64,000 nucleotides of DNA, taken from positions 5,518,001 to 5,582,000 of the forward strand of contig NZ_CP109090.1 of assembly GCF_035917575.1 (NCBI RefSeq), in the 5' to 3' direction. This DNA comes from Streptomyces sp. NBC_01788 (GTDB lineage: Bacteria > Actinomycetota > Actinomycetes > Streptomycetales > Streptomycetaceae). Of this stretch, positions 47,309 to 57,401 are shown one piece after another. The stretch's first letter is position 1; every line of letters starts with the position of its first letter. The notes under the pieces are model-generated. The model was not told the DNA's origin. It worked only from the letters and a program-made list of their open reading frames with translations, and ran no database searches. A program made the translations under genes and the position numbers.

Positions 47309-47376
47309 TCGCACGGCCCGCGCACCGGCCGGCCCACACGGCTCCCGGTGTGCGGGCACGCGTGTGCGGGCACGGC

Positions 47377-47406
47377 AAAAAGCCGGTCCACCGAAGTGGA
47401 CCGGCT
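47377..47406 (-). terminator. intrinsic terminator of rpmB
   Basis: Read leftward: AGCCGGTCCAC-TTCG-GTGGACCGGCT followed by TTTT, 48 bases after the rpmB stop. Confidence 0.88.
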
Positions 47407-47453
47407 CAGTGCAGCGAACCAGCAGTGGCCGCGCGCTTAGCTGTTGCTGTGCG

Positions 47454-47639
47454 TCAGCGCGAGACCTTGCCGGCCTTGATGCACGAGGTGCAGGCGTTCA
47501 CGCGCTTCGGCGTCCCGCCGACCACGGTACGCACGCGCTGGATGTTCGGGTTCCAGCGACGGGGCGTACGGCGGTGCGAGTGCGAGATGTTGTTGCCGAA
47601 GCCCGGCCCCTTGCCGCAGACGTCGCAGTTGGCAGCCAC
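47454..47639 (-). CDS. rpmB: ribosomal protein L28 (zinc-ribbon type)
   Basis: 61 aa: [45 protein letters not shown]. The CxxC pairs mark the zinc-binding (C+) form; Streptomyces usually carry a second, Cys-less L28 expressed under zinc limitation. Divergent from the FakA-like gene. Confidence 0.95.
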
Positions 47640-47906
47640 GGGTCACTCCAAAGACTTCAGATGCACTTACGGATGATCCCGGCATGCCGGGATCAAGATC
47701 TCAGGCTCGGAGAGCACTTCTTGAAATCTGAGTGGCGTTGCCAGGGGGTAAGCCCGATCAGGATCGGGCAACCGGAGCAGCATACAACGGCTGCGTCCGT
47801 AAGGCGAAACTACCACGGCGGCTCCGCTGCCCCCGCGGGCCCTCTTCCGTCGGGCACCGCCCCTGGGTCTACGCTGCGTCCAGTCCAGCAGCTCAGGGAG
47901 GCGCAG

Positions 47907-49625
47907 GTGGCGCAGGTGGCGCAGACGTTCGACGCGCCGGCGGTGCGCACCTGGTGCGGACTGGCGCTGCGGGCCCTGGGACGCGCGCGCGAGGAGATCG
48001 ACGCGATCAACGTCTACCCCGTGGCCGACGGGGACACCGGCACCAACCTGTATCTGACCGTGGAGTCCGCCGTCGCGGCGGTGGAGGCCGTGTTCGCCGC
48101 GCACGAGGTGGGCGACGGGACCGGTGTGGCCCTCCCCGGTCCCTCCCTGGCCGACGCCGCGCGGGCGATGGCGCACGGCGCGCTGATCGGGGCCCGCGGC
48201 AACTCCGGGACCATCCTCGCCCAGCTGCTGCGCGGCATGGCCCAGGTGTTCGCCGCCGACGGTGACCGAACCCACACCGACGGGCGCGAGCTCTGCCTGG
48301 CCCTGCGGCGCGCGGCGGACTCCGCCCGGCAGGCCGTGGCGCACCCGATGGAGGGCACGGTCCTGTCGGTGGCCTCGGCCGCCGCGGACGCGGCCACCGG
48401 GGCGGGCGGAGACTGCGGCGCCGTCGCCCTGGCCGCCTACGAGGGTGCCTGCGCGGCCCTCGCCGCGACCCCGGGCCAGCTGGCGGTCCTGGAGCGCGCC
48501 GGGGTGGTCGACGCGGGCGGGCGGGGACTCGTGGCGGTCCTCGCGGCCCTGGTGGAGACGTGCACGGGACGGGCGCCGGAGCAGGGTGCGTCCTCTTCGG
48601 CGGTGGCGGTGGCAGGTGACGGCGGCCCGACGGTGCCGCACGCGCGTGTGTGCTCCGCCGGGGACGACGGGCCCGGTGCCTGCGCGCCGCCCGCGAGCGG
48701 CCCCGCCTTCGAGGTGATCTACCTGCTGGACGCCGAGGACGCGGCCGTCGCCCGGCTGCGCGAGCGGCTCGACGGGCTCGGGGACTCCCTCGTCGTGGTC
48801 GGCGGCGACGGCCTGTGGAACGTGCACGTGCACGTCGACGACGCCGGCGCGGCCGTGGAGGCGGGCGTGGAGGCCGGGCGGCCGCACCGCATCCGGATCA
48901 CGCACTTCGCCGCCGATGACGCGCACACCGGCGGGCCCGGGCGGCCGCCGCAGCGGGAGCGGGCCCAGCGTGCCGTGGTGGCCGTCGTACCCGGCGAGGG
49001 CCTGGCCGGGCTCTACACCGAGGCCGGGGCGACCGCGGTGCTCGCCAGGCCCGGGGAGCAGCTCGCCAGCGGGGAGCTCGTCGACGCCGTACGGCGGGCA
49101 CACGCGCGCGAGGTGGTCCTGCTGCCCAACGACCCCGAGCTGCGCCACACCGCGTCCGCGGCGGCCGAGCAGGCCCGCGGGGACGGTGTCCGTGTGGCCC
49201 TGATCCCGACCCGCTCGGCGGTGCAGGGCATCGCCGCCCTCGCCGTGCACGAGCCGGGGCGCCGCTTCGACGAGGACGTCGTCGCCATGACCTCGGCGGC
49301 CGGTGCCACCCGGCACGCCGAGGTCATCGTCGCCGAACGCCAGTCGTGGACCACGGCCGGCATCTGCCAGGCCGGTGACGTCCTCGGTCTCATCGACGGG
49401 GACGTGGCCGTGATCGGCTCGGACGTCACGGCCACCGCCGAGACCGTCCTGGACCGCATGCTCGCAGCCGGCGGCGAACTGGTCACCCTCGTCCTCGGCG
49501 ACGAGGCCCCCGACACGATCGCCACCCGTCTCCAGACCCGGGTCCGCGAGTCCTACCTCGCCGTCGACACGGTCATCTACGAGGGCGGCCGCCAGGGAGC
49601 GCTGCTGCTCATCGGCGTGGAGTGA
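47907..49625 (+). CDS. DAK2-domain kinase-like protein (FakA/YloV family)
   Basis: 572 aa from GTG 47907 (GGAGG 5 bases upstream). The N-terminal DhaL/DAK2 nucleotide-binding domain has INVYPVADGDTGTNLYLT, GARGNSGTILAQLLRG and HPMEGTVLSVASA. The C-terminal DegV/FakA-like part has a GLAGLYTEAGA and RHAEVIVAERQ pattern. In Firmicutes FakA phosphorylates FakB-bound fatty acids; no fakB lies here. The position rpmB - this gene - recG is conserved in many Gram-positives. Confidence 0.85.
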   Translation: MAQVAQTFDAPAVRTWCGLALRALGRAREEIDAINVYPVADGDTGTNLYLTVESAVAAVEAVFAAHEVGDGTGVALPGPSLADAARAMAHGALIGARGNSGTILAQLLRGMAQVFAADGDRTHTDGRELCLALRRAADSARQAVAHPMEGTVLSVASAAADAATGAGGDCGAVALAAYEGACAALAATPGQLAVLERAGVVDAGGRGLVAVLAALVETCTGRAPEQGASSSAVAVAGDGGPTVPHARVCSAGDDGPGACAPPASGPAFEVIYLLDAEDAAVARLRERLDGLGDSLVVVGGDGLWNVHVHVDDAGAAVEAGVEAGRPHRIRITHFAADDAHTGGPGRPPQRERAQRAVVAVVPGEGLAGLYTEAGATAVLARPGEQLASGELVDAVRRAHAREVVLLPNDPELRHTASAAAEQARGDGVRVALIPTRSAVQGIAALAVHEPGRRFDEDVVAMTSAAGATRHAEVIVAERQSWTTAGICQAGDVLGLIDGDVAVIGSDVTATAETVLDRMLAAGGELVTLVLGDEAPDTIATRLQTRVRESYLAVDTVIYEGGRQGALLLIGVE

Positions 49626-49659
49626 GCCACACCTCCCCGGCCGGCCGCCGCCGGTCAGC

Positions 49660-50217
49660 CGCCCGGTCCCGTCTCCAGGGCGCGCGGGAGCCCTTCGGCT
49701 TCTGCGCGCCGGGAGTGCGTCCGGCCGTCCTCGGCGCGGGCTGGTAGGCCGTCGTCGCGGCAGGCACGCGTGTGGTGGCCTGGGCGGGGCGGCCTGGTGC
49801 CGTCGCGGGGCGTCCGGTGGTGGGTTCCGCTCCGGGGTCGCCGGTCGGTCGTCCGGTCCCGTCTCCAGGGCGCGCGGGAGTCCTTCGGCTTCTGCGCGCC
49901 GGGAGTGCGTCCGGCCGTCCTCGGCGCGGGCTGGTAGGCCGTCGCCGCGGCAGGCACGCGTGTGGTGGCCTGGGCGGGGCGGCCTGGTGCCGTCGCGGGG
50001 CGTCCGGTGGTCGGTTCCGCTCCGGGGTCGCCGGTCGGTCGTCCGGTCCCGTCTCCAGGGCGCGGGAGCCTTTCGGTTTCTGCGCGCCGGGAGTGCGTCG
50101 GGCCGTCCTCGGCGCGGGCTTGTGGGCCGTCGTCGCGGCACGCGCGTGCGTGGTGGCCTGGTGCCGTTGCCGGTCGTCCGGTGGTGAGTTCCGCTGCGGG
50201 GTCGCCGGTCAGTCGTC
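49660..50217. repeat. 190-bp tandem repeat, three copies
   Basis: The block beginning CGGTCCC at 49664 recurs at 49854 and 50044 (period 190 bp, few differences). A fourth, diverged match starts at 50218, where the 3' end of the TPR gene lies. The units resemble the last ~130 bp of that gene. It fills the 583-bp space between convergent genes; no codon-supported gene is seen within. Confidence 0.85.
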
Positions 50218-53148
50218 CGGTCCCTGCTCCAGCGCGCGCAGGAGTCTTTCGGCTCGCGCGCGCGGGGGCGGTGCCTCGGTGTCTCCCTCGTCGGCGTCCT
50301 CGTAGGCCGCCAGCACGGCACGTGCGTGCGCCGTGGCTTCGGCGGAGCGGCCCAGGTCGGCTGCCAGACGGCACGCGGCGAGTTCCGCCGCGGTGCGGTC
50401 GTGCAGGGCGGCCGGACCCAGGAGGGCGAAGGCGGCGATCGCCTGCTCCAGCCTGGACAGGGCCTCCTCGGCCACGGCCTCGTCCGCCGCGCCGTCCGCG
50501 AGCAGGTCGCCGAACTGCTGGTGGGTCTGACCGAGTTCCGCGACCAGCCGCTGTCGCGCCGCCGCGTCGTCCACCGCCTCCAGCGCCGACTCGCACTCCG
50601 TGACCGCGGCCCCCATCAGCTCCCGCGCCGCGTCCGGGCCTGCCTCGGTGCCCGATGCCAGCCACGCGCGTGCGCGCAGGGCACGGACCAGGCCGTGCAC
50701 GTCGCCCAGGGACCGCCACAGGTCGCCCGCGCGCGTGTACGCACGCTCGGCCTCCTCGTGCAGCCCCGCGCGGCTCAGCGACTCGGCGGCCAGATGGGCG
50801 AGGGTCGCGTGGTCCTGCTGCTCGGGCCAGTGCCGAGCGATCTCGGCGGCCTGCAGCCGGCGTTCGGCCGCCGCACGGTGTTCCCCGAGCTCGCTCAGAC
50901 AGTCGCCCAGCCACCACTGCGTCTGCACGACGGCCCCGTCGCCGTGCGTGTCCGCGGACAGGTCGGGCAGCGCGGACTCCAGCACCTCCGCGGCCTCCGC
51001 CCACCGCCCCAGCCGCAGCAGCAGACCGCCGAGCTGCTGCCGGGCCCAGGCCCCGAGCGCCGGTCCCTCGCCCGCCTCGTCGGCCCAGTGCGCGGCCTCC
51101 AGGGCGTGTTCCGCCGCCTCCTCGGTCCGGTCGAGACCGCCGAGCACCTCGGCGAGCTGAAGGTGCAGCTGTGCCCGGCCCGGGGCCTCCAGATACGTCC
51201 CGCCGTGCTCAAGGGCCGCCCGCAGCGCCCGCTCGGCGCCCTCCGGGTCGTCCAGATGGTGCGCGAGCGCCGCGAGCCGTGCCTCGTACTCCACCGCGAA
51301 CCACGGAACACCCGCACCGGCGTACTCGGCCGCGGCCCGCTCGAACAGCTCCGCGGCGCCCCGCAGATCCCCGGCGCGCGCGGCGGTCTCGGCGAGCATC
51401 GCCCGCGCCTCGGCCGCCCGGGCCGCCAGCCGCACATCGTCCCCGGTGTGCCCCTCCACGAGGGCCAGGACCTCCTGCACGGCCTCCTCGGCGGCGGACA
51501 GCGCCCCCGGGTCCACGGGCCCCCCGGCCTCGTACACCGGCCGCATCAGGATCCGTGCCCGCCCCATCACCACGGATGCGGTCTGCCGAACGCCGGTGCC
51601 CTCCTGCGCGTACAGCGCGAGGACGCGCTCGTAGGGCTCGGCGACTGCGGCGAGCGCCCCGTCCACATCGCCGGTCAGCGCCCTCATGTACGCGGCACGC
51701 GAGCGTGCCGCCAGCGCCTCGCCCGGGTCGCCCGCCCGCGCGTACGACTCGGCGGCCCGCTCGAACAGCGCGGCACCCTCGGGGCCCCGGCTCATCGCCT
51801 CGTGCTCGGCGATCTCCGCCTGGTCGCGGGCCGCCAGCTCGACGCCCTCCGCGGCCCGCGCGACCGCCGCCCACGCCTCCGTGGCGTGCGGCCGCAGGGT
51901 GTCCGACAGCCGCCGCGCCTCGGCGATCAGCGCGGGCAGGCCTGCTTCTCCGGCCGCCGCTGCCGCAGTCGCCGCTTCAGCCGTCTCCACGGGGACCAGC
52001 GCGGCGGGAGCCGAAGCCGTGCCGGCGGGCCGCCGCGCCGTGCGCACGCCCAGCGGAAGCCGCTCCACCAGCGGGCGCCGCGTCATGCGCGCGCGTGCCC
52101 GCTCGCTCACCCGGGACGTGCCGTTGCGCTCGTCGAAGCGGACCGCCAGGGCCGCCGCCTCCGCGCGCGCGTGCGCGGCGAGTTCGCCGGCTGTCCAGGC
52201 CCGCCCCGCGGGACCGGGCACCGTCTGCCCGTCCCACCCCAGCTCGACCAGCCGCTCCATGAGCAGGGCCGTCACCGCCAGGAAGTCCAGCCTGCTGAGC
52301 GGGTTCCCGTCGTCCGCGAAGTACGCGGGCCGCTCGGCCAGCAGCTCCAGGGCCCGCGCCTCGTTGCCGGTCAGCGCGCAGAACGCCACATGGTCGGCGT
52401 AGGCGCCCCGCATGCTCTCCATCGGCCGCACCAGCCTCAGGCCCCGCAGATGGTGAGCGCGCGCCTCGTCGAGGCGGCCGAGCCGCAGCAGCGGCAGCAG
52501 CGAGGAGGCGAGGACACCGTGCGGCTCGTGGGCGCAGGAGAACTCGCCGTCCAGCACCGGCCGCCACAGCTCGACCGCCTCCGCGTCCCGGCCGCACTCG
52601 GCCTGCCACCGGCCCTGGTCGTGCAGCTCGCAGGCGTGGCAGTCGGCCATGCTGTCCCGGTCGGCGGCCAGCCACGCCGCGTACGCACGCTCCGCCCGCG
52701 CCAGGTCCCCGATGTGCCGGGCGACACTGAACTCGGCGCTGCGCACGGCACGTTCGGAGTGGCCGGCGAGCCGGTAGCGGTGCTCCATCTCGCCGAGCCA
52801 CTTCTCGATCGCGGCCAGCGGGATGTGCGGCTGCCCCAGCATGCCCGCCGACATCCACTTGAAGACCCAGTGCAGCGAGTGGGTCTCGTACTCGTCGAAG
52901 TCCTCGGGGCGGTCGTCCCACATGCGCAGCAGCCGCGCGAACGGGACGAACATCTTGTCCTTCTCGGAGCTGTAGTTGTAGACCTTCAGCTGGTGTCCGA
53001 GCGCCTCGATCACGGCGAGCGGGATGTTCAGCCGCTCGGCCTCGGCGAGCAGCAGCTCCGCGCGCGCGTTGCGGGCCGGACCCTCGGGCCGCTCCCCGTT
53101 GGCGGCCAACTCGCGGCGCAGCGAGTCGAAGTCGGTGATCTCACTCAT
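50209..53148 (-). CDS. large TPR-repeat protein coupled to the HSP90-like gene
   Basis: 979 aa from ATG 53148 (MSEITDFDSLRRELAANG). Largely alpha-helical. Residues ~40-330 contain tetratricopeptide-like pairs plus CHACELHDQGRW. From ~440 on, clear TPR units occur (AAESYARAGDPGEALAARSR, AAELFERAAAEYAGAGVPWF, AAERRLQAAEIARHWPEQ, ERAYTRAGDLWRSLG). No enzymatic domain was recognised. ATGA overlap with the HSP90 gene implies a stoichiometric partner; TPR proteins are classic HSP90 co-chaperones in eukaryotes. Its 3' end has been tandemly duplicated in the adjacent spacer. Confidence 0.85.
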   Translation of the reverse strand: MSEITDFDSLRRELAANGERPEGPARNARAELLLAEAERLNIPLAVIEALGHQLKVYNYSSEKDKMFVPFARLLRMWDDRPEDFDEYETHSLHWVFKWMSAGMLGQPHIPLAAIEKWLGEMEHRYRLAGHSERAVRSAEFSVARHIGDLARAERAYAAWLAADRDSMADCHACELHDQGRWQAECGRDAEAVELWRPVLDGEFSCAHEPHGVLASSLLPLLRLGRLDEARAHHLRGLRLVRPMESMRGAYADHVAFCALTGNEARALELLAERPAYFADDGNPLSRLDFLAVTALLMERLVELGWDGQTVPGPAGRAWTAGELAAHARAEAAALAVRFDERNGTSRVSERARARMTRRPLVERLPLGVRTARRPAGTASAPAALVPVETAEAATAAAAAGEAGLPALIAEARRLSDTLRPHATEAWAAVARAAEGVELAARDQAEIAEHEAMSRGPEGAALFERAAESYARAGDPGEALAARSRAAYMRALTGDVDGALAAVAEPYERVLALYAQEGTGVRQTASVVMGRARILMRPVYEAGGPVDPGALSAAEEAVQEVLALVEGHTGDDVRLAARAAEARAMLAETAARAGDLRGAAELFERAAAEYAGAGVPWFAVEYEARLAALAHHLDDPEGAERALRAALEHGGTYLEAPGRAQLHLQLAEVLGGLDRTEEAAEHALEAAHWADEAGEGPALGAWARQQLGGLLLRLGRWAEAAEVLESALPDLSADTHGDGAVVQTQWWLGDCLSELGEHRAAAERRLQAAEIARHWPEQQDHATLAHLAAESLSRAGLHEEAERAYTRAGDLWRSLGDVHGLVRALRARAWLASGTEAGPDAARELMGAAVTECESALEAVDDAAARQRLVAELGQTHQQFGDLLADGAADEAVAEEALSRLEQAIAAFALLGPAALHDRTAAELAACRLAADLGRSAEATAHARAVLAAYEDADEGDTEAPPPRARAERLLRALEQGPDD

Positions 53149-55016
53149 CGGTGGCCGTCCCCCGTCGCGTCGGTGTCGCTGTGCGTGGCCCACTCCAGCA
53201 GGCCGATGAACGCCCGGTTCAGCAGCGCCGAGTCCGCCGGCCGCAGCGGGCGCTGCGCCATCAGCAGCGCCTGCCCGTACAGCGACTCGGTCGCGGTGCC
53301 GATGAGTTCCGGGTCGCCGAGTGAACCGATGCGGCGGATCAGCGGGTTGAGGTGGTTGAGCACCAGACGCGCGCGTGGGGCGCCGCCGCGCAGCGAGCCG
53401 AGGATGCCCGCCCACAGGTCGTCGGCCTGCTCCTCGGCCTCGGCGCGGGCCTGCTCGTGCCGGGCCGACCGGTCGTCCAGGTGCAGCGCCGGAACGGACA
53501 GCGGGTGGAAGGCGCGCAGCACGACGTCGCAGCCCAGCGGGTCCAGCCGGGCCCGCGCGGCGGCCAGGAAGCCCGACAGGGCCAGTTCCTCGGCCGGGCC
53601 GACGGAGTCCAGGTGGGCGGTCACGGTGTCCGCGTCCAGCTCGGCGACCACCGTCCCCGGGCGCACCGACGGCAGCGCCTCGACCAGCTCGCTGTCGTAG
53701 GTGTAGCCGCCGTTGACGACGCCGACGCCCTGCGCGGAGGCGATCGGCGCGACCTGCCGGTACTCCTCGACCGTCCGCGTGAAGTGCACGACGGGGTGCC
53801 GTCGCGCGAACTCCTCCAGGGACAGCCGCCCGTCGGTCGTCTCGAAGGGCAGCCACGGCAGCATCGTGCGCAGCATCTCCGCGTCGTGCCGGGCCAGCGA
53901 CTTGACCCCCAGGAAGTGCACCGACAGGAACGTTTCCAAGCGCTCCGGATCGCCGGCCGCGAGAGAGGTCAGCCAGGACCGTATCCGCTCCCCGAGCGCC
54001 TCGCGCACGGCGGCCAGCGTCTCGTCCTCGTACAGCGACTCCCGCGAGGCGGTGGGCCGCAGACTGTCCGTGTCGAGCACGCAGCGCACGAAGAACGCCC
54101 AGTCGGGCAGCAGCTGTTCGGCCCGCTCGGTCAGCAGCATGCCCTTCAGGTGCACGCGGTGACCCGCCCGCTGCGCCGGGCTGACCGCCGACGGCAGCAC
54201 GTACGCCACCCCGCGGATCCCGGCCAGCGGCACGTCCAGGCCGATGGCGTCCAGCGGGGTGAACCCGAACACCTCGTGGCAGTGCCGGGCCAGGGCGACC
54301 CGGCGGGCCGCGGGGGAGGGGTACGCCCGGTCCCAGGGCGCCGGCAGGTCGGTGACCGCCTCCTCGCCCACCTGGACGTCGTAGGGCAGCAGCGACCCGA
54401 AGTCCCGTGCCAGCGCGAGCACACGCCGCTCGGTGAGCCACTCGCCCGCCCCGGCCCGGGCCTGGAGGTGCACGGTGGTGCCGGGTTCCGGGCGGGCGGA
54501 GTCCGGCAGGGTCCGCACGGTGTACGAGCCGTCGTCGCGCGCCGTCCACTCCACCGGAGGCGCCTCGGGCGTCCGGGCGCTGCGGCTGACCACCCGGATC
54601 CGCTCGGCCACCACGAAGCAGGCCAGCAGGCCGATGCCGAACTGGCCGAGGAAGTCCGAGCGCGCCTCCCGCAGGCCCTCGGCCCGCTTGGAGCTGCGGC
54701 CGATGGTGGCCAGCAGTTCGTGCACGTCGGACTCGGTGAGGCCGACGCCGGTGTCCTCCACCCGGAGGGTGCCGCCGTCCGCGAACAGCCGTACGCGCGC
54801 CGGGGCACCGGGCTCCTCCGCGCGCCGGGCGGTGATGGCGTCCACGGCGTTCTGGAGCAGTTCGCGCAGGTAGACCTTGGGGCTGGAGTACAGGTGGTGC
54901 GAGAGCAGGTCCACCAGTCCCCGCAGATCGACCTGGAACATATGGGCCGGGCGGGGCTCGCCGGACGACTGTGATGAGTGGGATGCCTGTGCTGACTGTG
55001 AGGTCTGGAAGTCCAT
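53145..55016 (-). CDS. HSP90/HtpG-family ATPase
   Basis: 623 aa, near the usual HtpG length. N-terminal GHKL ATPase: E52 and N56 in YLRELLQNAVDAI, D88 in VEDTGVG, GRSSK, GQFGIGLLACFVVAERI. The middle domain carries FVRCVLDTDSLRPTASRESLYED with the catalytic-loop Arg. The C-terminal third is divergent and lacks a recognisable MEEVD, as in bacteria generally. Residues 1-25 (Ser/Gln-rich) extend the N-terminus; a later start is possible. Transcribed away from recG, with the TPR gene overlapping its stop. Confidence 0.88.
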   Translation of the reverse strand: MDFQTSQSAQASHSSQSSGEPRPAHMFQVDLRGLVDLLSHHLYSSPKVYLRELLQNAVDAITARRAEEPGAPARVRLFADGGTLRVEDTGVGLTESDVHELLATIGRSSKRAEGLREARSDFLGQFGIGLLACFVVAERIRVVSRSARTPEAPPVEWTARDDGSYTVRTLPDSARPEPGTTVHLQARAGAGEWLTERRVLALARDFGSLLPYDVQVGEEAVTDLPAPWDRAYPSPAARRVALARHCHEVFGFTPLDAIGLDVPLAGIRGVAYVLPSAVSPAQRAGHRVHLKGMLLTERAEQLLPDWAFFVRCVLDTDSLRPTASRESLYEDETLAAVREALGERIRSWLTSLAAGDPERLETFLSVHFLGVKSLARHDAEMLRTMLPWLPFETTDGRLSLEEFARRHPVVHFTRTVEEYRQVAPIASAQGVGVVNGGYTYDSELVEALPSVRPGTVVAELDADTVTAHLDSVGPAEELALSGFLAAARARLDPLGCDVVLRAFHPLSVPALHLDDRSARHEQARAEAEEQADDLWAGILGSLRGGAPRARLVLNHLNPLIRRIGSLGDPELIGTATESLYGQALLMAQRPLRPADSALLNRAFIGLLEWATHSDTDATGDGHR

Positions 55017-55181
55017 CGTCGCAGCGCCGGTGGGGGGATCTCGGGTCGGCGCGGGGTAGGGCGGCACCTGTGAGGCGGCAGCCGCGGGGATGGCCGGAGC
55101 GCGTCATCCTAGGCCCTGCACGGACCGGCTGACCAGGGGTTTCCCCGGAGGTTTACGGCATTGTCGGTGCCGTGGTGTGCA

Positions 55182-57401
55182 ATGGATCTCGTGCCCGCAC
55201 TGCAAGAACCACTGAAACAGCCACTGAAGTCAGTGCTCGGCCCCGCCACCGCGAAGGTGATGGCCGAGCACCTCGGCCTGCACACCGTCGGCGACCTCCT
55301 GCACCACTACCCGCGCCGGTACGAGGAGCGCGGCCAGCTCACCCACCTCGCCGACCTGCCCATGGACGAGCACGTCACGGTGGTCGCCCAGGTCGCCGAC
55401 GCCCGCCTGCACACCTTCGCCTCCTCCCGCGCGCCCCGCGGCAAGGGCCAGCGCCTGGAGGTGACGATCACGGACGGCAGCGGCCGGCTCCAACTGGTCT
55501 TCTTCGGCAACGGCGTGCACAAGCCCCACAAGGAACTCCTGCCGGGCACCCGCGCGATGTTCGCGGGCAAGGTCTCGGTCTTCAACCGCCGATTGCAACT
55601 GGCCCACCCGGCGTACGAGTTGCTGAAGGGGGAGGACGGGGAGGCGGTCGAGAGCTGGGCCGGCGCGCTGATCCCGCTGTACTCGGCCACCGCCAAGCTG
55701 GAGTCCTGGAAGATCGGCAAGGCGGTACAGACCGTCCTGCCCAGCGCCCAGGAGGCGCTCGACCCGCTGCCCGAGTCGCTGCGCGCGGGCCGCGGCCTGG
55801 TCACCCTTCCCGAGGCCCTGCTCAAGGTCCACCGCCCGCACACCAAGGCGGACATCGCCGACGCCCACGCCCGGTTGAAGTGGGACGAGGCCTTCGTCCT
55901 CCAGGTCGCCCTCGCCCGCCGACGCCACGCGGACACCCAGCTCCCCGCCGTCGCCCGCGTACCCGGCCCGGACGGCCTCCTCGAGGCCTTCGACGACCGC
56001 CTCCCCTTCACCCTCACCGACGGTCAGCGGAAGGTCTCCCGCGAGATCTTCGCCGACCTGGCCACCGAGCACCCGATGCACCGTCTGCTCCAGGGAGAGG
56101 TCGGCAGCGGCAAGACACTCGTCGCCCTGCGCGCCATGCTCGCCGTCGTCGACGCGGGCGGGCAGGCCGCGATGCTCGCGCCCACCGAAGTGCTGGCCCA
56201 GCAGCACCACCGGTCGGTCACCGAGATGATGGGGGAGCTCGCCGAGTCGGGCATGCTGGGCGGCGCCGAGCACGCCACCAAGGTGGTGCTGCTCACCGGG
56301 TCCATGGGCGCCGCGGCCCGCCGGCAGGCCCTGCTCGACCTGGCCACCGGCGAGGCGGGCATCGTCATCGGCACGCACGCGCTGATCGAGGACAAGGTCC
56401 TGTTCGACGACCTGGGACTGGTCGTGGTGGACGAGCAGCACCGGTTCGGCGTCGAACAGCGCGACGCCCTGCGCGGAAAGGGCAAGCAGCCCCCGCACCT
56501 GCTGGTCATGACCGCCACGCCCATTCCGCGCACGGTCGCGATGACGGTCTTCGGCGACCTGGAGACCTCCGTCCTCGACCAGCTCCCGGCGGGGCGCTCG
56601 CCCATCGCCAGCCATGTCGTCCCGGCCGCCGACAAACCGCACTTCCTGGCCCGGGCCTGGGAGCGGGTGCGCGAGGAGGTGGCGAAGGGCCACCAGGCGT
56701 ACGTGGTCTGCCCGCGCATCGGGGACGAGGAGGACGATCCGAAGAAGGCCGCCGCGAAGAAGTCCGCCGAGGACGAGGCGGAGAAGCGCCCGCCGCTCGC
56801 CGTGATGGACATCGCCGACCAGCTCGCCAGGGGCCCGCTGCACGGCCTGAAGGTCGAGGTGCTGCACGGCCGCATGCAGCCCGACGACAAGGACGCGGTC
56901 ATGCGCCGCTTCGCCGCCGGCGAGACCGACGTCCTGGTCGCCACCACGGTCATCGAGGTCGGTGTGAACGTACCGAACGCCACGGTGATGGTGATCATGG
57001 ACGCCGACCGCTTCGGCGTCTCCCAGCTGCACCAGCTGCGCGGCCGCGTCGGCCGCGGCTCGGCGCCCGGCCTGTGCCTGCTGGTCACCGGGATGCCGGA
57101 GGCGAGCGCCGCCCGGCAGCGGCTGAACGCGGTGGCCTCCACCCTCGACGGCTTCGAGCTCTCCCGCATCGACCTCGAACAGCGCCGCGAGGGCGACGTC
57201 CTCGGCCAGGCCCAGTCCGGTGCCCGTTCCAGCCTGCGGGTGCTCGCCGTCATCGAGGACGAGGAGATCATCGCCGAGGCCCGCGAGGAGGCCGCCGCGG
57301 TGGTGGCCGCCGACCCCGAGCTGGAACGCCTGCCCGGGCTGCGCACGGCGCTGGACGCGTTGCTCGACGAGGAGCGGGAGCAATACCTGGAGAAGGGCTG
57401 A
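55182..57401 (+). CDS. recG: ATP-dependent DNA helicase RecG
   Basis: 739 aa. The wedge OB domain is N-terminal (YPRRYEERG; RLEVTITDGSGRLQLVFFGN). Helicase motifs: LLQGEVGSGKT (Walker A), VVDEQHRFGVEQR (Walker B, DEQH), TATPIPRT, TTVIEVGVNVPNAT, QLRGRVGRG. It rescues stalled replication forks by branch migration. A charged linker (DDPKKAAAKKSAEDEAEK) is inserted in the second RecA lobe. Start ATG 55182. Confidence 0.96.
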   Translation: MDLVPALQEPLKQPLKSVLGPATAKVMAEHLGLHTVGDLLHHYPRRYEERGQLTHLADLPMDEHVTVVAQVADARLHTFASSRAPRGKGQRLEVTITDGSGRLQLVFFGNGVHKPHKELLPGTRAMFAGKVSVFNRRLQLAHPAYELLKGEDGEAVESWAGALIPLYSATAKLESWKIGKAVQTVLPSAQEALDPLPESLRAGRGLVTLPEALLKVHRPHTKADIADAHARLKWDEAFVLQVALARRRHADTQLPAVARVPGPDGLLEAFDDRLPFTLTDGQRKVSREIFADLATEHPMHRLLQGEVGSGKTLVALRAMLAVVDAGGQAAMLAPTEVLAQQHHRSVTEMMGELAESGMLGGAEHATKVVLLTGSMGAAARRQALLDLATGEAGIVIGTHALIEDKVLFDDLGLVVVDEQHRFGVEQRDALRGKGKQPPHLLVMTATPIPRTVAMTVFGDLETSVLDQLPAGRSPIASHVVPAADKPHFLARAWERVREEVAKGHQAYVVCPRIGDEEDDPKKAAAKKSAEDEAEKRPPLAVMDIADQLARGPLHGLKVEVLHGRMQPDDKDAVMRRFAAGETDVLVATTVIEVGVNVPNATVMVIMDADRFGVSQLHQLRGRVGRGSAPGLCLLVTGMPEASAARQRLNAVASTLDGFELSRIDLEQRREGDVLGQAQSGARSSLRVLAVIEDEEIIAEAREEAAAVVAADPELERLPGLRTALDALLDEEREQYLEKG

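Follow-up and report, generated by a model that had tools for sequence, protein, structure and literature searches.

In eukaryotes, Hsp90 works together with tetratricopeptide repeat (TPR) co-chaperones such as Hop/Sti1, FKBP51/52 and PP5. For bacteria, the available part of PMC7926864 states that no Hsp90 co-chaperones have been identified, and that of PMC7688965 that an orthologue of Hop is missing. Here we describe a locus in Streptomyces sp. NBC_01788 where a gene for an Hsp90-type ATPase overlaps one for a TPR protein, in the following called its partner. The locus lies in a stretch of 64,000 nucleotides (the window; contig NZ_CP109090.1, positions 5,518,001 to 5,582,000). The two genes form a module of great phylogenetic depth. 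Probably they encode the two components of one chaperone machine, namely a divergent Hsp90 acting as an ATP-driven dimeric clamp and a TPR protein dedicated to it as co-chaperone or client adaptor.

The arrangement is likewise an Hsp90 with a TPR protein and may work like the eukaryotic system, but the bacterial Hsp90 has no MEEVD tail and the bacterial partner is a long solenoid with a cysteine-bearing core. Chen et al. 2006 (PMC1525184) describe, in the part available, a divergent HtpG "Group C" with members in Actinobacteria and Firmicutes, and two HTPG copies of different groups in S. coelicolor; the term "tpr" is nowhere in the text. Group C is probably the same lineage as the NCBIfam family NF010683 (PRK14083), of which the window Hsp90 is a clear member. 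This family model covers the Hsp90 only: the partner matches nothing in NCBIfam or PADLOC at E-values up to 1. In the open PMC texts, to which the search was limited (subscription papers lie outside it), the divergent HtpG lineage is described and no description of the TPR partner was found. The accessible parts of PMC3710099, PMC3708813, PMC10490939, PMC3603443, PMC6901971 and PMC3534079 contain nothing on an Hsp90-TPR pair.

The two proteins

The Hsp90 gene (53145-55016, minus strand; 623 amino acids from the ATG at 55016) and the partner gene (50209-53148, minus strand; 979 amino acids) share the four bases ATGA at 53145-53148: the stop codon TGA occupies 53147-53145 and the start codon ATG 53148-53146. 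The genes, their coordinates and the overlap are thus as given in the preliminary description of this DNA.

The Hsp90 scores 860.9 bits against NF010683, "HSP90 family protein" (cut-off 455), residues 24-616 being aligned with profile positions 5-601 of 604. Against the canonical HtpG equivalog NF003555 it reaches 173.1 bits, below the cut-off of 371, over profile positions 3-405 of 614, and against Pfam HSP90 24.1 bits, just below the cut-off of 24.4. An ordinary HtpG identity is ruled out by these scores, and a profile search of the source genome finds one NF010683 gene over the cut-off, one partner and no HtpG over its cut-off. In fold and catalytic residues the protein is the same as canonical HtpG, and we regard it as an HtpG-like paralogue.

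The hallmarks of the Hsp90 superfamily are present: a GHKL ATP site with the catalytic Glu, the middle-domain Arg, and N-terminal, middle and C-terminal (dimerisation) domains. In an alignment of the window protein with 155 relatives, Glu52, Asn56, Asp59, Asp88, Gly90, Gly92 and the Gly124-Gly129 motif are kept in 155 of the 156 rows, Thr180 in 154 and Arg325 in all; these positions correspond to the catalytic residues of Hsp90. The AlphaFold model (m765a8089debd) has a mean predicted local distance difference test score (pLDDT) of 90.0 and a predicted template modelling score (pTM) of 0.84. It shows the N-M-C fold over residues ~12-614 and aligns with TRAP1, an HtpG model and eukaryotic Hsp90 in all three domains. 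The earlier statement of an HtpG-like ATPase with intact catalytic residues therefore holds for the residues, while "HtpG-like" is correct only in the broad sense of NF010683, not NF003555.

The tail of the protein carries no MEEVD-type docking motif and lends no support to the eukaryotic mode of binding: in the window it ends in TGDGHR (residues 620-623 have pLDDT below 50), and tails vary between clades. Endings such as GEDGHR, EDQK, RKEL and RKDS were considered as a motif. By eye they seem to coincide with purine-rich coding sequence just before the partner start, so no protein motif is claimed.

Two observations concern related ATPases. The source genome has a second GHKL-type stretch (G000:C1:3658877-3659140, within a frame of 1069 amino acids) scoring 29.7 bits against NF010683, with similar matches in other genomes of the genus. 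For the S. hygroscopicus HtpG of the geldanamycin literature, two residues are too few to place it inside or outside the family.

The partner is a TPR protein by its tandem helical hairpins, seen in a match to Pfam TPR_12 (31.9 bits, cut-off 30.1), the model and the structural matches. Its AlphaFold model (mc3f0e44442f2; pLDDT 95.5, pTM 0.92) is all helical save two strand marks of two residues each. Foldseek finds TPR and other helical solenoids; the lowest E-values are to IFT-A, Ctr9 and the Ski complex at TM-scores of ~0.2, and several short TPR superhelices reach 0.6-0.75 when normalised by target (1w3b 0.63, 8chy 0.75).

Two parts can be distinguished in the partner. The first, ~350 residues at the N terminus, is a conserved core (residues 1-356; 52081-53148, minus strand), delimited by alignment and profile matches and common to the short partners of other phyla; outside actinomycetes, partners typically have 310-390 amino acids. 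The C-terminal TPR solenoid (residues 386-979; 50212-51993, minus strand), recognised from TPR_12, the model and partner lengths, is found in most actinomycete partners and is missing from the short ones. A low-confidence stretch of the model, residues 378-384, lies between the two. Among the 156 aligned partners, the core is marked by Trp94 and Lys97 (151 rows), Pro209 (152), Arg341 (150) and a triad of cysteines, Cys170 and Cys173 in a DCxAC pattern and Cys205 (52534-52641, minus strand; each in 151). Searched against PDB sequences at E-values up to 1, the core profile has one match, a designed protein (E 0.0062).

Occurrence in Streptomyces and its phylum

Among 150 genomes of the same genus, an NF010683 Hsp90 is found over the cut-off in 95, in two classes (A and B) separated by bit score, and the partner core in 97. 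Both occur together in 95 genomes, Hsp90 alone in none, the core alone in two (G085 and G135) and neither in 53. Canonical HtpG passes its cut-off in 65 of the 150 genomes: 38 have HtpG and the pair, 27 HtpG only, 57 the pair only and 28 neither (p=0.31). Since the two distributions are independent, the pair does not replace HtpG. Nor is it universal in core Streptomyces with only ordinary htpG function, as might have been the case.

A sample taken across the phylum has the Hsp90 in 22 of its 396 genomes, and a comparison by eye finds a strong core in all of these but one, G411 (21 of 22). A second type of Hsp90-TPR pair is seen at locus L122 (8950-11651), where a borderline Hsp90 overlaps by four bases a TPR protein of 297 amino acids without the core.

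The pair in other phyla

Outside Actinomycetota the pair was noted in two named Bacillota records, where the proteins that follow the Hsp90 have 322-353 amino acids and show the DCxAC...C pattern seen in the first third of the window TPR protein. In a Bacillota sample the Hsp90 is rare, being found in 3 of 199 genomes, one of them the centre genome of the sample. A wider set was taken from GTDB with the Hsp90 as the only basis of choice: the best 80 of 568 confirmed relatives, a selection that leans towards the Paenibacillus query. By titles and taxonomy these 80, many of them metagenome bins, come from at least nine phyla: Bacillota, Actinomycetota, Planctomycetota, Myxococcota, Acidobacteriota, Bacteroidota, Deinococcota, Thermodesulfobacteriota and Pseudomonadota.

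The core profile matches 75 of these best 80 loci. In 73 the core lies downstream of the Hsp90 on the same strand, in 70 of them starting between -20 and +30 nucleotides from it and in three within ~200 nucleotides; it is convergent in L160 and upstream in L201. Five loci lack a core: L157 runs to a contig edge, and for the remaining four a core is present at another place in the genome. Taken over all loci chosen by their Hsp90 (L045-L208), a core is found at 157 of 163, against 0 of 28 HtpG loci; eight of these 28 were assigned to HtpG by score only, with flanks of 1.5 kb. The choice of L125, L126 and L128 rested on Hsp90 matches, that of L127 on its partner, and L127 is excluded from the counts. 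The Hsp90-TPR partnership suggested in the preliminary description is thus borne out as a lasting one, extending well beyond Streptomyces.

The arrangement of the genes is also conserved. In 150 of the 156 catalogued pairs the partner starts within -20 to +30 nucleotides of the Hsp90 stop, and in 102 the genes overlap (by less than 20 nucleotides), with start codons set by script; some of the scripted starts, such as those of L084 and L126, are incorrect. Among 643 script-called open reading frames around the loci, no third gene is found repeatedly in one position in different phyla. The 14 clusters of neighbours listed include clusters at scattered places, one that reads as second cores, and one family in eight loci (seven in Bacillota) that usually comes immediately after the pair. 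At L126 (7806-9774), L175 and L200 two partner cores follow one Hsp90 in tandem, and in L126 a SMI1/KNR4 gene comes next.

Further, the two proteins have similar histories. Trees of 51 pairs have 27 of 48 splits in common, and pairwise distances in Hsp90 and partner correlate with r=0.86. Two Streptomyces paralogue clades, L085 and L091 with Embleya, and L087, L094 and L196, are recovered from the Hsp90 tree and the partner tree alike, and each clade has a partner of its own. The L183 partner was left out of the alignments (A4/A6).

Several points weigh against a strict partnership. The rows of the core profile came from four of the 150 genomes and nine of the 163 loci. The Fisher test on the co-occurrence (p 1e-38) and the permutation test on the distances (0 of 2000 reach the observed r, the highest being 0.22) take no account of shared ancestry, and part of the tree agreement is shared species history. 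One genome counted as having neither gene, G027, has an Hsp90 fragment below the cut-off (230 bits) at a contig end, with no core found. Whole-genome searches find no core in the genomes of L157 and L183, although the L183 locus has one; absence by such a search is therefore no proof. In G411 a borderline Hsp90 member is overlapped by four bases by a TPR gene of another type, without the core. No fusion of the two genes occurs among the 156 pairs, so of the earlier idea of an operon fusing both roles a dedicated chaperone pair stands as the best reading, and literal fusion does not. Finally, orphan cores exist in G085 and G135, and some cores accompany YbjN proteins in place of Hsp90: the core is not exclusive to Hsp90.

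Three such cores follow proteins with a YbjN domain (PF10722) and have no adjacent Hsp90 (L241 8932-11006, L242 8969-11019, L127 4166-8883); all keep the cysteines. In L241 the core is fused to the YbjN domain, and L242 looks alike. The core may be an adaptor used with different partners. Stand-alone proteins of ~1070-1088 amino acids with the core are found at L239 (7302-10514, with weak TPR matches) and L240 (9332-12598), in two genomes of the same genus without the Hsp90. A WxxKW element (residues 94, 97 and 98) is lost in two YbjN-linked cores. It was considered as specific to Hsp90 and rejected, as the core of A. oris, also beside YbjN genes, keeps it.

Genomic context and upstream region

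In the window, the pair lies between two plus-strand genes that we take, following the preliminary description, to be fakA (DAK2 type) and recG. The former lies in an open reading frame at 47364-49625, with its true start further in, and the latter at 55188-57401. Among 74 fetched Hsp90 loci of the genus, 41 are between fakA and recG and 33 elsewhere. We compared these with 30 genomes of the genus that lack the pair at this site: fakA is directly upstream of recG in 27 of 27 readable junctions, with an estimated gap of 36-426 nucleotides (in the other three the short flank contains no fakA, and they are uncounted). The comparison indicates an insertion of the pair into core synteny, as had been proposed, or else many losses at this site. 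At the same site, L116 (G009) has the Hsp90 in two pieces with an internal stop beside the partner gene, apparently a decaying copy.

A tandem repeat of 190 base pairs, 3.3 copies, covers 49649-50266, including the 3' end of the TPR gene, and fills the gap to fakA. It looks like a strain-level duplication, since the two gene ends are within ~50 nucleotides in the relative L045.

Upstream of the Hsp90 gene, a promoter-like TGGTCA - 18 nucleotides - TAGGAT can be read by eye at 55106-55135 (minus strand), a putative housekeeping promoter. Matched with their consensus strings, HAIR and CIRCE operators were not found in the 260 nucleotides upstream (best matches with 6 and 9 mismatches, respectively). 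A sigR-like pattern has two mismatches in the window, too loose to claim; in class-A loci it is exact in 1 of 40 and has one mismatch in 15 of 40.

Alternative explanations

The TPR protein could be a dedicated client, with the Hsp90 folding or assembling a giant solenoid that acts elsewhere as a scaffold. The co-inheritance would fit this too, as would the one-to-one pair with the chaperone gene first, and a core that also occurs without Hsp90 must have a job of its own somewhere. On the other hand, the short partners outside actinomycetes are of ordinary size, for which an Hsp90 of their own is not expected, and G085 and G135 have cores without an NF010683 Hsp90. We consider this explanation unlikely.

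A stress or conflict (anti-phage) module had also been suggested. The distribution is patchy within the genus (95 of 150 genomes), and the pair is found at several genomic sites: both genes are adjacent on a 562-kb mobilizable plasmid of Streptomyces globosus, and both match on two larger Streptomyces plasmid records. NZ_CP030101.1 and NZ_LR134399.1, labelled Listeria plasmids, are of chromosome-scale length or have housekeeping genes; they are probably mislabelled chromosome and hence no evidence of plasmid carriage. Among phage sequences, a 6.6-kb human gut virome record labelled "Bacteriophage sp." (MT837560.1, 1933-4340) has the Hsp90 (43% identity) followed by the partner core, so phage may carry the pair. 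PHROGs 32952 and 34905 match as well. In INPHARED, 17 records match the Hsp90 and only two reach 80% coverage. The majority, short unannotated contigs of which two are labelled Listeria phage, are taken for host DNA. A scan of IMG/VR gave 46 pattern matches and no confirmed relatives.

The defence databases do not favour such a module. The best PADLOC match of the Hsp90, TmtA at 29.7 bits, is confined to residues 28-145 (profile positions 23-128 of 1302) and, like a match to a type II enzyme, reflects a shared GHKL ATPase stretch; no PADLOC component is matched over its full length, and the partner matches no family. Beyond that stretch no toxin or nuclease domain is listed for either protein in Pfam, NCBIfam or PADLOC, no neighbour is at a fixed place, and the pair stays recognisable over nine phyla without diversification. 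A conflict or defence system is thus not supported, and we regard it as improbable.

The cysteine triad invites another explanation, a redox or metal sensor in the core through which oxidative or metal stress would turn the Hsp90 on or off. Its conservation, in nearly all partners and in all five checked cores without an adjacent Hsp90, speaks for such a site; as it is also kept where the Hsp90 is absent, the triad may be structural only. We rate a sensor marginally lower still than a defence role. Ordinary HtpG function beside an unimportant neighbour, for which the ordinary fold and catalytic residues speak, is strongly disfavoured by the 95 of 95 co-occurrence, the linkage over nine phyla, the absence of cores at all 28 HtpG loci and the agreeing trees.

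Proposed mechanism and implications

How a chaperone and its co-chaperone might work here can be outlined from the sequences and models. Coupling through the ATGA overlap would make both proteins together and in matched amounts. The Hsp90 would bind and hydrolyse ATP like other Hsp90s, as its residues and predicted fold suggest. From the linkage, the co-occurrence and the tree agreement we infer that the ~350-residue core docks on the NF010683 Hsp90, and not on canonical HtpG, through a surface distinct from an MEEVD tail. Physical binding, co-chaperone function and any control by the cysteines are likewise inferred. More speculatively, the triad could stabilise the core, perhaps by holding a metal, or render it redox-responsive, and in actinomycetes the added C-terminal solenoid could capture clients.

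A more far-reaching version, which we put forward only tentatively, is that bacteria of nine or more phyla possess an Hsp90 whose TPR co-chaperone is obligate and encoded alongside it, that the three-cysteine site of the core gates the machine, and that actinomycetes gained a client-binding solenoid of ~600 residues. If this is true, TPR-dependent Hsp90 work was not invented by eukaryotes.

In general, a pairing that recurs in such distantly related bacteria points to a dedicated helper protein for some of the bacterial Hsp90s. A partner that tracks one Hsp90 lineage over nine phyla is a concrete protein to purify, with canonical HtpG as a ready negative control, and its ~350-residue versions are small forms suited to biochemistry. 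The use of TPR co-chaperones by bacterial Hsp90 thereby becomes directly testable, and the answer would inform the origin of the eukaryotic system.
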